This document shows positions 15,563-36,802 of a stretch of 36,802 nt of DNA, one piece after another. The notes under the pieces were generated by a model that did no database searches, was not told the origin of the DNA, and saw nothing but the letters and a program-made list of their open reading frames with translations. Source of the DNA: Gammaproteobacteria bacterium (GTDB lineage: Bacteria; Pseudomonadota; Gammaproteobacteria; Pseudomonadales; Ketobacteraceae); NCBI GenBank assembly GCA_002748575.1, contig PDSR01000058.1, forward strand, positions 1 through 36,802, in the 5' to 3' direction. The position numbers were made by a program, and so were the translations under genes. Position 1 is the first letter of the stretch, and each line of letters begins with the position of its first letter.

Positions 15563-15755
15563 ATGATGGTTATCTTAGAAAAAGCCACGGATTGTACCAC
15601 GGCAGCTCACCTTGTTTCGATTTGAGTGCTAGACTTCTCTGCAAAACAATCAAAACCAGAAGAACTGCTCACTGAAAGAATTACGCACTGGAAGAATGAC
15701 GCAAACATTGTGTAACATGAGCAATCAGTCATCTAAGGGGTGGGGCAACCTGACA

Positions 15756-19373: not shown

Positions 19374-20033
19374 ATGACACAAGATGATCTTAAAAAAGCC
19401 GTTGCCAAAAAAGCCATTGATTACGTTGTAGAAGGCGAAATTGTTGGCGTGGGCACGGGCTCAACCGCTAACTTTTTTATTGATTACCTGGCCCGGATTA
19501 AAGACCGCATCGAAGGCACCGTTGCCAGCTCGAAGGCCAGCCAGCAACGCCTGGAGAGTCATGGTATTCCGGTGTACGATCTGAACAGCGTTGACAGTGT
19601 GCCTGTGTATGTTGATGGTGCTGACGAAGCTGACCCAAACCTTTGTCTGATCAAAGGTGGCGGCGGTGCGCTAACCCGTGAAAAAATCATTGCTGATGTA
19701 GCTGAAAAGTTTGTCTGTATTGCCGATGCCAGCAAAAATGTGGCGGTATTGGGCCAGTTTCCATTGCCGGTAGAAGTGATTCCCATGGCACGTTCGCACG
19801 TTGCCCGCCAATTAGTAAAACTGGGAGGCGACCCGGTTTATCGTGAAAACTTCGTAACCGACAACGGCAATATTATTTTGGATGTACACAATATGCAGAT
19901 TGCCAAACCCGTTGAGCTGGAGGCACAGATTAACAATATTGTGGGTGTAGTCACCAATGGTTTGTTTGCCCGGAGAAGTGCTGATGTGTTGCTGCTGGGA
20001 AATGATAACGGCGTTGAGACGATACTTCTCTGA
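19374..20033 (+). CDS. rpiA: Ribose-5-phosphate isomerase A
   Basis: [46 protein letters not shown]. Confidence 0.97.
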
Positions 20034-20060
20034 TCAACCGAAAGTCTGATCAACCGAAAG
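20029..20060. repeat. Tandem direct repeat 2 x 16 bp (TCTGATCAACCGAAAG)
   Basis: Exact duplication; first unit contains the rpiA stop codon. Confidence 0.95.
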
Positions 20061-20085
20061 TGCATCGAGATTAAACCAAAAGCAA

Positions 20086-20186: not shown

Positions 20187-21961
20187 CTATTCTGAAACCA
20201 GAATCACCCTGGAATAGACCGCACCATCAACGCTGGTTACATTAATCGTAAGTGTACCACCCGTTGTAGCGGCATTACTGTCAGGGCCTACCACAATAGT
20301 TTGGGTAATACCCTTACCAAAGATTTTAGGATCTGCACACCCATTTGGAATTTTGAATGAGCCGCCACCTATAATTTCTATTCCTTCGGCGACTATGTCG
20401 ACTGTTGTGCCAAATGCAGGCAATAAGCCATTAATATCAGAAATAGTCACATCTACAGTATTGCCATCTGTAGACATATCAAAACTGCCATTACGACTGT
20501 CTTTGATTAGAACCGCATCAGATGACATACACAGGTACATGTTGCCCCTGATTTCAGCCACTCCCCGACAGTGGCCCGCAGCAAATGCATCTGAAGTACA
20601 ATTACTGCCCCGATAAAATCTGTCAAGTTTTAGTGAATAATCACCACTGCCATCAAAATCCGAATAGTATTCACCGTAGTCATACTGGCCATTACCATTT
20701 TCATCGTTATAGGCTTCATCCAAGTGCAGAATACCTTCATCAGCATCATACAGCCCGTTGCCGTTCAGATCTGCAAACGCTTCAGGGGCATCGTATCGAC
20801 CATTGGCATTGGAATCGACGTAATCTTCACCAACATCATAAAAACCATTGCCGTTAGCATCGACAAATTCTTCCGGCGAGTCATATTCTCCATTTCCATT
20901 AATATCTGTGAAGAACTCGCCTGGATCGTACTGACCATTATCATTAGCATCAGTGTAAGCTTCACCGTGATCATAGAGCCCATTGCCATTAGCATCAACG
21001 AACCCCTCGGCACCATCGTAGTATCCGTTTTTGTTTAAATCAGAAAATCTTTCGCCCCGATCATAAACACGGTTTCCATTGGAATCTGTGTATAACTCAA
21101 TACCACCATCATACACACCATTACTGTTTTCATCCTCAAAGGTTTCCCCAACGGTATACTTACCATCAGCGTTATAATCGACATAAGGCTCACCACTATC
21201 AAAGGAGCCATTGCCGTTGGCATCAACATACAGCTCACCAGCATCATATGCGTTATTATTATTTGCATCCAGGTAAAGCTCAGCTGCATCATATACGCCT
21301 CAACGAAACGCTCGGCACCACGATCATAAAAACCGTTGCCATTCAAATCAACGTAGGGCTCCGCTTCATCAAACACGCCATTACGATTCAAATCGCTATA
21401 AGCTTCCCCGTCGTCCCACCGGCCATTTGCGTTAGCATCTTCGTAGGGCTCATAGTCATATACACCATTACCATTTCTATCGGTATAAGGTTCCGCAGCC
21501 GCGTCATAAAGGCCGTTACTGTTACTGTCTATGAAAGTTTCCTCGCCAATCGCGGTGGCCAGGATTCTTACAATACCACCTTCCGGCCTTGGCATTTGAC
21601 TCGTCCAGTCCACGGTGCAGCCACCGCCTGTTAAAGAGCAGCTTGACTCTATGGCACCACCACTGGCAACAAAGGAAACATCTATTGCATCCAGTGCCGG
21701 ATTATTATTTCTATCACCGACGCGAGTCGTCACTTTAGAAACGGTACCGAAATAATTCCAACCCCTGGGGTTCAGGATATCGGCTGCAAGTGTGAAGCTG
21801 TTTTGGTCAGGTACAGTGCCAGGATTAAAATCAGGTCTGTCACTCCCGCCACCATGCCCGCCATTTCCACTATTAAATTCTGAAGAGCTGTTCCCACCCC
21901 CACAGGCACTGATCATTGATAACACAAAAAGCGACGCCAGCAACATTCTTATTCTTATCAT
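20187..21961 (-). pseudogene. Lipoprotein with about 19 tandem DxNGNGxYD calcium-binding (EF-hand/dockerin-like) repeats, split into two ORFs by a frameshift
   Basis: 21961 start: MIRIRMLLASLFVLSMISACGGG (lipobox). The repeat series runs in one frame to about 21305, then continues without stops in another frame (VYDAAELYLDANNNNAYDAGELYVDANGNGSFDSGEPYVD...) to the stop at 20187. Confidence 0.8.
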
Positions 21962-23080: not shown

Positions 23081-24148
23081 TTAAGCCACCACCTTCACCC
23101 CATGACTGCGATCGGCAGTTAAAATTTCAAATGCTGCCCGATTTCGGGTTTCCAGCACCCGTTGCGGTTTCCCTTGTCGCTTTATCTGCAAACGGCAGCC
23201 GGCTATTTTGCTGTTCAGACAGATATTCGTGCCACCGGGCGGGTTATAGTAATTCAAACCCACAAAATCATAGCGCAGCCCATAAATATCGCATACCACC
23301 GAGGTATCACCCTGCGCGGTTTCGATATGCCAGTTAAAGTAATTGAAGGTGGCTTTGGCGCGTGTAGCGTTCCATAAATTATTCAGCTTTATTTCTTCGC
23401 CATCCACCCGAATAACCAGGGTGGTCATCCAGGGTGTCCAGATCGGGCCGATTTTTAACCTGGCGGTTGCCACTTCCAGAAACGCTTGAGGGTCGTTATC
23501 AAAGCCTGCCACCTGTCCCCAGGCATAGTAATCAGTATGTTTTTCGCCCCAGTTGTGGTTTTCGCTGCCTTGCCAGTTATCAATCGCAATACTATTACCA
23601 TCAACCACAAGGGAACCCCGGTATCGCACATTGGGATTACCCACCAATGCCTTGGCTTTTGGCAGAGGCGTGCTGTATAAAACTTCAGGAAGCAATAACA
23701 AGGGCTTTTCGCCGTTGCCATAGTGTAATTGCCAACTGATTTGGTGGCCATTCAGTGCGGCAGCGCCCTGAGCTTTTCCAGGTACTAAACGAGCCCTATC
23801 ACCCATGTTGACCGATAAACCTTCACTGGAAAATGCACATTGAGCCAACGGCAGCTCTTCTTTTACCGCAGTGACCTGATGGGTTTCGCCATTAAAAAAA
23901 ATGGCCCATAGTTCACCAATGCTGTTTTCGGGCTTACCTTTGGGCACAAAAACAGTGTAACGAATCCAGAATGCATAGGGTTTTTCCGGGTGGTTTGCCC
24001 GTAAAAAATAACTTTCATAATGACCTTTTTTACTGTTTATATCGAAACGACAACGATTTGCCGCATTGCGCTGCGTGCTATATTGGTCGTCTTCAGCCAC
24101 CACAAATTTAGCCACTGTATTGTTTGCCACTGCGTTATTTTGCGCCAT
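23081..24148 (-). CDS. Uncharacterised protein, possibly CrtC/AttH (lipocalin-like) superfamily
   Basis: WQGSENHNWGEKHTDYYAWGQVAGFDND recalls the NWG/Y-W-G core of hydroxyneurosporene-synthase/AttH-like proteins; family assignment from motif impression only. Confidence 0.5.
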   Translation of the reverse strand: MAQNNAVANNTVAKFVVAEDDQYSTQRNAANRCRFDINSKKGHYESYFLRANHPEKPYAFWIRYTVFVPKGKPENSIGELWAIFFNGETHQVTAVKEELPLAQCAFSSEGLSVNMGDRARLVPGKAQGAAALNGHQISWQLHYGNGEKPLLLLPEVLYSTPLPKAKALVGNPNVRYRGSLVVDGNSIAIDNWQGSENHNWGEKHTDYYAWGQVAGFDNDPQAFLEVATARLKIGPIWTPWMTTLVIRVDGEEIKLNNLWNATRAKATFNYFNWHIETAQGDTSVVCDIYGLRYDFVGLNYYNPPGGTNICLNSKIAGCRLQIKRQGKPQRVLETRNRAAFEILTADRSHGVKVVA

Positions 24149-24174: not shown

Positions 24175-24615
24175 TTAATTGGCTGCAACAGCGCTGTTAT
24201 CGGATTCCAGCCTTATGGCTTTTAAGGGGAAAGTAATAATTGGCCCCTGGTAACGCACTTCAGCATAACCAATGATTTCGCCCTTTGCATAAACTGTTAA
24301 CGGGCAGGTTACTAAAGACTCAACCAGCTCATTCATCGAATAGCTTTTTTCACCCGAAGCACGCACCAAACCAATGCCTGGAAATTCAAAGTCCAGCTGG
24401 TACTTTGGCCCAGAGAGCTGAAAAGTTAACTCACCTTCGACAGGGGTTTGATAGTCACGATCTGTTAGCCTGGCAATGCCCGCAAAAGGCTGTGCGCCCA
24501 GCAAGCGGGAACCTTTCCCCAAACCCACTTTAATGGTGAATTCAAACGCCTCGGCTTTTCGGGTTTCATTCAGTTCTATCCAACCCTGCATGGTTTCGTT
24601 CAGCACCAATTTCAT
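24175..24615 (-). CDS. Hypothetical protein (146 aa), GMC-oxidoreductase neighbour
   Basis: Complete ORF; three RBS-like repeats directly upstream; between the GMC oxidoreductase and the CrtC/AttH-like gene, same strand. Confidence 0.7.
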   Translation of the reverse strand: MKLVLNETMQGWIELNETRKAEAFEFTIKVGLGKGSRLLGAQPFAGIARLTDRDYQTPVEGELTFQLSGPKYQLDFEFPGIGLVRASGEKSYSMNELVESLVTCPLTVYAKGEIIGYAEVRYQGPIITFPLKAIRLESDNSAVAAN

Positions 24616-24618
24616 TGT

Positions 24619-24661
24619 TTTACCCCTTTAATTGTTTACCCCTTTAATTGTTTACCCCTTA
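24619..24661. repeat. Tandem 16-bp repeat (about 2.7 copies) carrying Shine-Dalgarno-like sequence on the minus strand
   Basis: TTTACCCCTTTAATTG at 24619-24634 and 24635-24650, partial third copy TTTACCCCTTA; minus strand reads AAGGGGTAAA three times before the ATG at 24615. Confidence 0.95.
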
Positions 24662-31934: not shown

Positions 31935-32058
31935 GCGTTATAGCTGATAGCCCTGGCCGTTTCTTGTTTTTTATCGCGCTATTTTTTAGCTCTATTGCTT
32001 TCCCCCACATCAGGTTATAAGATGGAATCGCCTAACAATAAATAATAAGAAAAATAAT

Positions 32059-33768
32059 ATGAATAAAAAATATCTCCGCACACTGATCATTCCCGCAAGT
32101 GTTATTGCCTTATCCGGCTGTAACAAGCCACTCTGGTTAGCAGAAGTATTCAGTGAACAACACGAAAACGTGTACATTTCTGATATTGCCCTGGACGACG
32201 ACAACAACACCTATTCCACCGGTTCGGTACAAACTTACTTTGCCACCGACGCAAATAACGCCGCCATTAAAGGCTATGACATTTTAACGGTTAAACACGA
32301 TGCCGAGGGCAACGAAGTGTGGCGGGCAACCTATTCCAGCCCTTATGAACGCACTGCACCACGCCAGTTCATTACTAACGATGATGGCCTGGTGGATATT
32401 CTTGATCCTGAGCATTGGGATTACACCGGCGGCGAAGAAGGGCAGTTTCTGCTCAATGATGAACAGGGCAATACTTATGTGGTTGGCCGCATTCACGGTG
32501 AAAACTTTGATGCCAACCAGCACATTAGCGAACAGGACTGGGATGTTGTTGTTCTAAAATACAATACCCAAGGGGAGCTGACCGCAGAGCTGATTCTGGA
32601 AGAATCCGATCAGTTTGACGCCACTCAAAAAGCAATCTTCCAAAATAACCAGCTATCGTTAGCCATTAACGATAAACAGGATTCCAGCTATTTAGTGCTT
32701 AATCCCGACCTGAGTGTTGCCCAAAGCCACACCCTGACAAATGTTCAAGTACTCGATTTTGTAAAAACTGATGAAGGCAAGTGGGTCACTGTCTATTCCA
32801 ATGGCAAATGGCAATACGCATCCTCTAATACATGGGTTGCTCAGTACGATAACAATATGGTGCAGGAATGGCACCACTACGGCTACTATAATCGAATTTT
32901 GCCATCAATCGTATTGGATTCACAAAACAATATACTTATCGCCTCATCCATCGAGGGTGTTTTGCAAGTTGACCTTTACAGCCACTCATTATTAGAAAAA
33001 CTGACACCCGACGGAGAGCTGGCATGGAAAATTAGCTTTATAAACGGTGAAACGATCCTTCCTAACCTATACTCAAATTTCTTTAGTCTGAAAAGCAAAC
33101 TGGCTATCGCCCCTGACGATTCGATTTATTTGGCTTCGGAGAAGCTTTCAGTTTTTCCTCCCTTACTTGTTCTTGGATCATTTTCAACCAGTGCAAGCAC
33201 TTATATCAACAAAGTATCACCGGAAGGTGGGAAACTTTGGCAGCATGATTTACATGGTAAACGGTTTTTTGCGAGCAATTTCCTTTCCTCCAATACAACA
33301 GATCAAAGGCTCAACGACATTAAGCTATTACCGGATGGCCGCTTGGCAGTCGGTTATGAAAAAGTATTCGGCATTCATACTCACGGCGAATATGCCTTTG
33401 ATGATTTGCAACTGTTAGGAGCAATATACACCAGAGATCCGAACCAGAATGGGTATAGTGAAACCTATAACTACATAGAAACGGGCCGGGAATCCAGAGT
33501 GTTAATTTTACAACCCGATGGTGGTGTGTTTAAAACACTGCCACCGACTAAAGGCGAGCATCAACGCGCTTTTGCCATCAACAGCCACAACAACATTGCT
33601 GTGGCGGGTGATAATTACGATTTTCACGAAGCGCTGCCAATAACATGGACTCGAAAAAGCGGAGGCTATTTCTTTCAAGGCCTTTATTCTCTGACAAGAT
33701 TCGAAGCCACTCAGCTTAGACAGGATGCTCCGAGCAGAGGATCAATAGCCTTATTCAGCACCGATTAA
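32059..33768 (+). CDS. Propeller-repeat lipoprotein, tandem paralogue 1
   Basis: MNKKYLRTLIIPASVIALSGCNK (lipobox LSGC) then repeats of the type xxxDxxxNxYxxG...K...GxxxW. Confidence 0.85.
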   Translation: MNKKYLRTLIIPASVIALSGCNKPLWLAEVFSEQHENVYISDIALDDDNNTYSTGSVQTYFATDANNAAIKGYDILTVKHDAEGNEVWRATYSSPYERTAPRQFITNDDGLVDILDPEHWDYTGGEEGQFLLNDEQGNTYVVGRIHGENFDANQHISEQDWDVVVLKYNTQGELTAELILEESDQFDATQKAIFQNNQLSLAINDKQDSSYLVLNPDLSVAQSHTLTNVQVLDFVKTDEGKWVTVYSNGKWQYASSNTWVAQYDNNMVQEWHHYGYYNRILPSIVLDSQNNILIASSIEGVLQVDLYSHSLLEKLTPDGELAWKISFINGETILPNLYSNFFSLKSKLAIAPDDSIYLASEKLSVFPPLLVLGSFSTSASTYINKVSPEGGKLWQHDLHGKRFFASNFLSSNTTDQRLNDIKLLPDGRLAVGYEKVFGIHTHGEYAFDDLQLLGAIYTRDPNQNGYSETYNYIETGRESRVLILQPDGGVFKTLPPTKGEHQRAFAINSHNNIAVAGDNYDFHEALPITWTRKSGGYFFQGLYSLTRFEATQLRQDAPSRGSIALFSTD

Positions 33769-33794
33769 TCATACGTTAGCGGCATCTGAACCAC

Positions 33795-33829
33795 CCAGTG
33801 CGGCGCTTGTTCATGAAGCGTCGCACTGG
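33795..33829 (+). terminator. GC-rich hairpin downstream of paralogue 1
   Basis: CCAGTGCGGCGCTT - GTTCATG - AAGCGTCGCACTGG; 14-bp stem with a single G.U pair; no strong U tract. Confidence 0.6.
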
Positions 33830-33975
33830 CAACCTCCACAACACCTGGCTATCCACGCAACACGCCCCCTCGCCAAACATTAACCCTACGAAACTCTGAA
33901 TTTAACCGCTATTGCATTCCCGCTAAACGGGCTATAGGATGGAGCCACTTAGTAATAAATAATAAGAAAAATAAC

Positions 33976-35748
33976 ATGAACAAAAAGCACCTTAGTAAAC
34001 TTATTCTGCCAATAGGCGTTGTTGCCCTGTCCGGCTGTAACAAGCCGCTCTGGTTAGCAGAAATATTCAGCGAACAGCACGAAAACGTGTACATTTCCGA
34101 TATTGCCCTGGACGACGACAATAACACCTACTCCACCGGCTCGGTACAAACCTACTTTGCCACCGATGAAAATAACGCCACCATCAAAGGCTTTGATATT
34201 TTAACGGTTAAACACGATGCCGAGGGCAACGAAGTGTGGCGGGCAACCTATTCCAGCCCCTATGAACGCACTGCACCACGGCAGTTTATTATTAACGACG
34301 ATGGCTTGGTGGATATTTTTGATCCTGAGCATTGGGATTACACCGGCGGCGAAGAAGGGCTGTTTCTGCTCAACGATGACCAGGGTAATACCTATGTAGT
34401 TGGCCGGGTTCACGGTGAAAATTTCGATGCCAGCCAGCATGTTGCCGCACAGGACTGGGATGTTGTTGTGCTTAAATACGATACCCAGGGGACACTGACC
34501 GCAGAACTGATTCTGGAAGACTCCGATCAATTTGATGCGGTTCGTAATGCGTCCTTTGAAAATAACCAGCTATCGTTAGCCATTAACGATCAAAACGATT
34601 CCGATTTTTTGGTACTTAACTCCGACCTGAGTATTACCCAAAGCCACACCCTGGCAGATACTCAAGTGTTTAATTTTGTGAAAACCGATACGGGCAAGTG
34701 GGTTGTTGCAGCTTCTTCCGGTAACGATTGGCACTTAGAAAACAGCATTTCACTCTACGACCAAAACATGACGCTGGAGTGGTCTCATGTCAAGCCGGAA
34801 TACCCCTATCACCGATTATTACCTGAAATCGCATTGGACTCACAAAACAACATTATTGTTGCTTCAATCTCGCTTTATGCTGAAAGCTTTGACCACCCAG
34901 TCACCAGCGCTGCTCAACTGGAAAAGTTCACCCCTAGCGGGGAGCTGGAATGGGAAATGATCAGGACAGGTGCAGCCAACACGAACGAAAACGAATATAT
35001 TATCTGGTATGGGGATGTTGATCCGCTGACGCCCGGGAATTCGCATGACTTGTTCAATCTGAAGAACAAGCTGGTAGTCGCCTCTGATGATACCCTGTAC
35101 TGGGCTTCAGAACACCTTACCGCTTTTATACATGGGCCTTTGAATTTAATCGCAGGCCAATATGGCAGGTATACCGCCAGTGCCTCCACCTATATCAAAA
35201 AAATATCATCGGAAGGTGAAGAGCTTTGGCAACATCATTTAAGTGGCAGCAGAACGTCTACCCTTTTTGGTTTATCTTTTAATACGGTGGATCGAAGGCT
35301 TAGTGATATTCAATTATTGCCAGATGATCGTCTGGCAGTGGGCTATGACAAAGTATCCGGCACTCATTTCGACAACGTGGAATCCGGAGCTTTATTAGGC
35401 AGGCTGCCCTATTCGAGAAATTCACCCTTTGGATTTTACGATCAGTTCAACTATATAGAAAAAACGCAAAATTCCCGCCTGTTGATTTTACAGCCCAACG
35501 GAGAACCGCATAAATCTTTGTCACTGAAAGGCGAGCAGCAGCGTGCTATTGCCATCAACAACCAAAACAACATCGCCGTGGCAGGTGACAATTATGATTT
35601 TTACGAAACACTGCCACTAACATGGGATCCAGGCAATGGTGTCAACAACTTTTTCCCTGGCTTACTCTCGTTAACAAAGTTCGAATCAACCCGGCTACGG
35701 CAGGATACGCCCAGTAAAGGATCGGTGGCTTTATTTAGTGCCGAATAG
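33976..35748 (+). CDS. Propeller-repeat lipoprotein, tandem paralogue 2
   Basis: MNKKHLSKLILPIGVVALSGCNK; N-terminal third very similar to paralogue 1; shared C-terminus LRQDTPSKGSVALFSAE. Confidence 0.85.
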   Translation: MNKKHLSKLILPIGVVALSGCNKPLWLAEIFSEQHENVYISDIALDDDNNTYSTGSVQTYFATDENNATIKGFDILTVKHDAEGNEVWRATYSSPYERTAPRQFIINDDGLVDIFDPEHWDYTGGEEGLFLLNDDQGNTYVVGRVHGENFDASQHVAAQDWDVVVLKYDTQGTLTAELILEDSDQFDAVRNASFENNQLSLAINDQNDSDFLVLNSDLSITQSHTLADTQVFNFVKTDTGKWVVAASSGNDWHLENSISLYDQNMTLEWSHVKPEYPYHRLLPEIALDSQNNIIVASISLYAESFDHPVTSAAQLEKFTPSGELEWEMIRTGAANTNENEYIIWYGDVDPLTPGNSHDLFNLKNKLVVASDDTLYWASEHLTAFIHGPLNLIAGQYGRYTASASTYIKKISSEGEELWQHHLSGSRTSTLFGLSFNTVDRRLSDIQLLPDDRLAVGYDKVSGTHFDNVESGALLGRLPYSRNSPFGFYDQFNYIEKTQNSRLLILQPNGEPHKSLSLKGEQQRAIAINNQNNIAVAGDNYDFYETLPLTWDPGNGVNNFFPGLLSLTKFESTRLRQDTPSKGSVALFSAE

Positions 35749-35775
35749 GTCGTTAGCATCATCCGACTAACCAGC

Positions 35776-35810
35776 CCAATGCGGCGCTTGTTTATTGAGC
35801 GGCGCACTGG
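35776..35810 (+). terminator. Imperfect hairpin downstream of paralogue 2, homologous to the one after paralogue 1
   Basis: CCAATGCGGCGCTTGTTTATTGAGCGGCGCACTGG; same position relative to the CDS as 33795-33829. Confidence 0.5.
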
Positions 35811-35936
35811 GTATCCCCGCAAGGCTGCCCTCGCCAAACATTGGCCCCGGGAAACCCTGAATTTAAGCACTATTGCATTCCCGCTAACCCGGTTATAGGA
35901 TGAAGCCACCTAATAATAAATAACAAGAAAAATAAC

Positions 35937-36802
35937 ATGAACAAAAAGCACCTTCGCACGCTGATCATTCCTGCAAGCGTTTTAGCCCTGTCAGGCTGCA
36001 ATAAGCCACTCTGGTTAACAGAAATATTCAGCGAACAACACGAAAACGTGTACATTTCCGATATTACCCTGGACGACGACAACAACACCTATTCGACCGG
36101 TTCGGTACAAACCTACTTTGCCACCGACGCAAACAATGCCGCCATTAAAGGCTTTGATATTTTAACGGTTAAACACGATGCCGATGGCAACGAAGTGTGG
36201 CGGGCGACCTATTCCAGCCCCTATGAGCGTACCGCGCCACGGCAGTTTATTACCAACGACGATGGCCTGGTAGATATTTTCAATGTTGCTTATATCGACG
36301 ACGATATTATTCCTAACTGGGATTACACTGGCGGTGAAGAAGGGCTGTTTCTGCTCAACGATGACCAGGGCAATACCTATGTGGTTGGCCGGATTCACGG
36401 TGAAAATTTCGATGCCAATCAGCATGTTACCGCACAGGACTGGGATGTAGTTGTTCTCAAATACGATACCCAGGGGGAGCTGGCCGCAGAGCTTATTCTG
36501 GAAGATTCCGATCAGTTTGATGCCGTTCGCAATGCATCCTTTGAAAATAACCAGCTATCGTTAGCCATTAACGATCAATACGATTCCGACTTTTTAGTAC
36601 TTAACCCCGACCTGAGTATTGCCCAAAGCCACACCCTGGTCGATGCTCAAGTGCTTAATTTTGCGAAAACCGATACCGGCAAATGGGTGGTGGTCACGGC
36701 CCCCCGCGAGGACTGGTACTTTGAACAAAGCGTTTCACTCTACGACCAGAACATGACACTGGAATGGTCTCATCTTAAACCGGATTTTCCTCCTCACCGA
36801 AT
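35937..36802 (+). CDS. Propeller-repeat lipoprotein, tandem paralogue 3 (truncated by window end)
   Basis: Own translation from 35937: MNKKHLRTLIIPASVLALSGCNKPLWLTEIFSEQHENVYISDITLDDDNNTYSTGSVQ..., open to the window edge. Confidence 0.85.
   Translation, partial: MNKKHLRTLIIPASVLALSGCNKPLWLTEIFSEQHENVYISDITLDDDNNTYSTGSVQTYFATDANNAAIKGFDILTVKHDADGNEVWRATYSSPYERTAPRQFITNDDGLVDIFNVAYIDDDIIPNWDYTGGEEGLFLLNDDQGNTYVVGRIHGENFDANQHVTAQDWDVVVLKYDTQGELAAELILEDSDQFDAVRNASFENNQLSLAINDQYDSDFLVLNPDLSIAQSHTLVDAQVLNFAKTDTGKWVVVTAPREDWYFEQSVSLYDQNMTLEWSHLKPDFPPHR

Follow-up and report, generated by a model that had tools for sequence, protein, structure and literature searches.

Lipoproteins with an SBBP-type beta-propeller (Pfam PF06739) are known from Leptospira, where the LipL53 family comprises several paralogues per genome and several LipL53-like paralogues are expressed (PMC13066512). 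For LipL53 itself, binding of laminin, collagen IV and fibronectin has been reported (PMC4388678, PMC13066512). In CylK a propeller is fused to an N-terminal Ca-binding domain and an enzyme (PMC8916777). Adjacent SBBP genes are already known elsewhere, from the Leptospira paralogues and from a MAG (L031:6205-13288) in which two neighbouring genes encode giant SBBP proteins of 1172 and 1148 aa, another tandem SBBP pair.

The locus studied here lies at the right end of contig PDSR01000058.1 of a Gammaproteobacteria bacterium, whose phylum is unrelated to that of Leptospira. The whole contig (36,802 nt) was analysed and is referred to as the window; the source assembly is a draft of 1.59 Mb in 128 contigs and 55% complete. 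As in the LipL53 family, lipoproteins with a predicted SBBP propeller are present in several paralogous copies. What is unusual is only the local duplication together with a patchwork pattern of divergence; the protein class already has a name. The features of the array are as follows.

31995-32023, + strand: promoter-like element of gene 1 (TTGCTT-17-TAAGAT), conserved upstream of all three genes
32059-33768, + strand: lipoprotein paralogue 1 (P0001), SBBP-type beta-propeller; ORF of 569 aa, SBBP score 26.1 bits (cut-off 20.5)
32059-32772, + strand: 5′ part of gene 1, about the first 238 codons, putatively homogenised; breakpoint at alignment column 238
33793-33829, + strand: hairpin after gene 1 with a 14-bp stem, possible terminator without a T run; −26.7 kcal/mol, z −4.1
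33976-35748, + strand: lipoprotein paralogue 2 (P0002); ORF of 590 aa, SBBP score 12.1 bits (below cut-off), 7-8 blades predicted by AlphaFold2
35776-35812, + strand: hairpin after gene 2, a diverged copy of the gene 1 hairpin; fold z −1.7
35937-36802, + strand: lipoprotein paralogue 3 (P0003), first 288 aa; open ORF truncated by the contig end at 36802, SBBP score 23.6 bits

Protein identity amounts to 66% between P0001 and P0002, 79% between P0001 and P0003 and 85% between P0002 and P0003, which bears out the tandem same-strand array of at least three paralogous lipoproteins described in an earlier note on this DNA. All three N-termini follow the pattern MNKKxL...ALSGCNKPLWL. The lipobox LSGC is followed in each by Asn at position +2, as also stated before; this non-Asp residue is the sequence pattern of outer-membrane lipoproteins and points to an outer-membrane address. 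Copy number is given as at least three because the contig ends inside gene 3 and the assembly is 55% complete, the remainder of this assembly containing no fourth copy. No partner gene for the lipoproteins is visible at the locus. Horizontal gain on a plasmid was considered and rejected, as there was no plasmid match and the GC content of the array is just slightly lower than that of the remaining window.

The proteins had been regarded as members of no recognised family, but P0001 and P0003 score above the gathering score of Pfam SBBP. P0002 fails this cut-off when taken alone, yet it shares 66-85% identity with P0001 and P0003. The blade signature D-x-x-G-N-x-Y-x-x-G-S ... K-Y-D-x-x-G-N-x-x-W is shared with SBBP repeat proteins, although the repeats in the window are more degenerate than typical ones, e.g. 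those of the SBBP proteins of L031 and L033. The LipL53 model (NCBIfam NF047494) matched P0001-P0003 over part of their length with 33.9, 38.0 and 36.8 bits. Because these scores lie far below the equivalog cut-off of 400 bits, the three proteins are not LipL53 orthologues, and the LipL53 function cannot be transferred to them.

An AlphaFold2 model was built for P0002 from four sequences (pLDDT 56.6, pTM 0.64). It consists of repeated four-stranded sheets, six of them complete (residues 38-92, 127-180, 229-272, 280-331, 364-422 and 433-517), and one incomplete at the end (521-588); confidence is low around residues 190-225. The predicted propeller begins about 17 residues past the lipobox cysteine. 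A sequence search of the PDB yielded no match. In a Foldseek comparison most structural matches of the model were propellers, the best being the beta-propeller domain of CylK (E 1.8e-13), with TM-scores to PDB entries mostly of 0.2-0.5 and of about 0.4 for CylK and the other best matches. The structure prediction thus supports, at low-to-moderate confidence, P0002 as a 7-8-bladed propeller at the level of the class, though not in its details. The propeller-like repeats noticed earlier thereby gain support from both Pfam and AlphaFold2, whereas the exact number of blades, read from a model of this quality, stays uncertain.

Homologues were searched for in a comparison set of 16 genomes of the same family (Ketobacteraceae). 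Two other genomes encode full-length homologues with about 21-22% identity, P0004 (Gammaproteobacteria bacterium 45_16_T64; AlphaFold2 model poor, pLDDT 47.7) and P0005. In common with the window proteins they have the same lipobox, an invariant Trp after it and, at the C-terminus, a DAPS/DAPA motif. Unlike the array, both are solitary genes in unrelated neighbourhoods, so that the question whether homologues also occur as tandem arrays is answered in the negative for these two. P0004 precedes a Rieske gene by about 640 bp, and two genes on the opposite strand stand between P0005 and alkB. As no shared operon was evident, the idea that the relatives are linked to genes of alkane or sterol oxidation was dropped.

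Searches of 394 genomes of the order yielded no relative beyond the family, and in the class a weak partial match came from one of 369 genomes. With the LipL53 profile, 12 of the 16 family genomes showed at least one divergent propeller protein, in scattered distribution, and each of those propeller lipoproteins for which the neighbouring genes were inspected is encoded by a single gene. In this gammaproteobacterial group, lipoproteins of a divergent SBBP type are common. Divergent propeller lipoproteins of family members (L045, L046, L047, L048 and L049; 408-542 aa) lie in unrelated neighbourhoods, and some of them match the PQQ_2/BamB or LipL53 models weakly. The nearest relative, of the same genus and 97% complete, shares the neighbourhood of the array, with SerA-SDR-RluA in the same order, but there unrelated genes come next and a copy of an array gene is absent. 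Therefore the array represents a lineage-specific expansion, or it was lost in the nearest relative.

Similarity among the copies extends beyond the coding regions. Conservation spans about −65 to the start codon in front of all three genes and includes a promoter-like consensus (TTGCWT-17-TARGAT, 3/3) and a common A-rich leader (AATAAATAAyAAGAAAAATAAyATG). A consensus scan flagged neither the promoter-like element nor the hairpin as a terminator. The hairpin is no genome-wide repeat, as it has a single exact match in the assembly. Each gene forms its own unit, with a putative promoter and, after genes 1 and 2, a putative terminator.

Divergence is unevenly distributed along the genes. When P0001 is compared with P0002, silent differences affect 48/197 codons (24%) in the first 255 alignment columns and 82/158 (52%) thereafter (Fisher p 9e-8). 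The best single breakpoint is alignment column 238, and its score was reached by none of 1000 permutations. Since the silent sites shift in step with the replacement sites, protein constraint alone cannot explain the mosaic. It can be explained by gene conversion or recombination in the 5′ portion, as far as one full-length pair and a partial third copy allow such a reading. For the same pair dN/dS is 0.21 before the breakpoint and 0.16 beyond it, where dS is near saturation; wherever estimable, the ratio was 0.15-0.27. Purifying selection therefore acts on these genes, and diversifying selection left no sign at this resolution. Selection for diversity, which the earlier note had brought forward, was tested and is unsupported with a dN/dS of about 0.2. 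After the breakpoint, predicted strands are more alike (identity 0.61) than loops (0.47), as expected of a conserved scaffold with changing loops.

We favour, with a probability of roughly 55%, a lineage-specific tandem array of outer-membrane SBBP-propeller lipoproteins that arose by duplication of the whole unit, was homogenised in its 5′ part and probably has a binding role. The at least three genes would have arisen by joint duplication of promoter, gene and hairpin. The promoter-proximal part, i.e. signal peptide, lipobox and first blades, would be kept alike by ectopic gene conversion or unequal crossing-over, while later blades and loops would drift apart under purifying selection. At the outer membrane the lipoproteins would most likely bind a ligand, a polymer or a partner protein, and the paralogues would differ in their C-terminal blades. 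Ligand or partner binding is the most economical reading of the lipid anchor, the non-Asp residue at +2, the predicted propeller and, by analogy, the LipL53 reports. The array would then be a small, clear case of local expansion and mosaic evolution of an outer-membrane propeller lipoprotein within one lineage. It opens no new class of system and is real but mostly ordinary.

The main rival reading, a periplasmic scaffold role like that of BamB, appears unlikely. Two single-copy relatives, P0004 (29.3 bits) and L046 (33.6 bits), do exceed the gathering score of 27.6 bits for Pfam PQQ_2/BamB (PF13360), but P0001-P0003 have no match to this model, and a core assembly factor would not be expected to occur in scattered fashion, to be missing from the nearest relative or to stand in tandem copies. 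That the propellers are enzymes, e.g. polysaccharide- or small-molecule-modifying like CylK, propeller lyases and sialidases, is less probable still: CylK, sialidases and the PL24 lyase are among the top Foldseek matches, but such matches are generic to propellers, with low TM-scores and 8-13% identity, and the N-terminal Ca-binding beta-roll of CylK has no counterpart in the window proteins between lipobox and first blade.

An extension of the favoured binding array, in which conversion would maintain a uniform 5′ cassette while C-terminal blades are swapped and specificity is altered, so that recombination drives a repertoire of binding propellers, is to be regarded as a long shot. Contig ends commonly fall within repeats, and this contig does terminate within a copy; nevertheless an assembly-induced duplication of a single gene, named as an objection in the earlier note, is practically excluded by 15-34% protein divergence among the copies, hundreds of differing sites, indels and dissimilar intergenic sequence.

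Some further features of the window were recorded. A lipoprotein gene at 20187-21961 (− strand) encodes about 15 or more acidic calcium-binding-like repeats (YxDxNGNGxYDxGE) and gave no Pfam match; a frameshift near 21290, due to repeat slippage or an assembly error, splits it into two ORFs. The product of 23081-24148 (− strand), also without a Pfam match, resembles by eye, possibly by coincidence, the product of L033:12549-13556 (− strand), which adjoins an SBBP gene; both contain the motifs GHYESxFLRANHPxKPxAFWIRYTVF and YYNPPGGTxxCLNxKIAxCRL. Short tandem repeats with 16-bp units lie beside or between genes at 15670-15703, 20029-20061 and 24610-24660.
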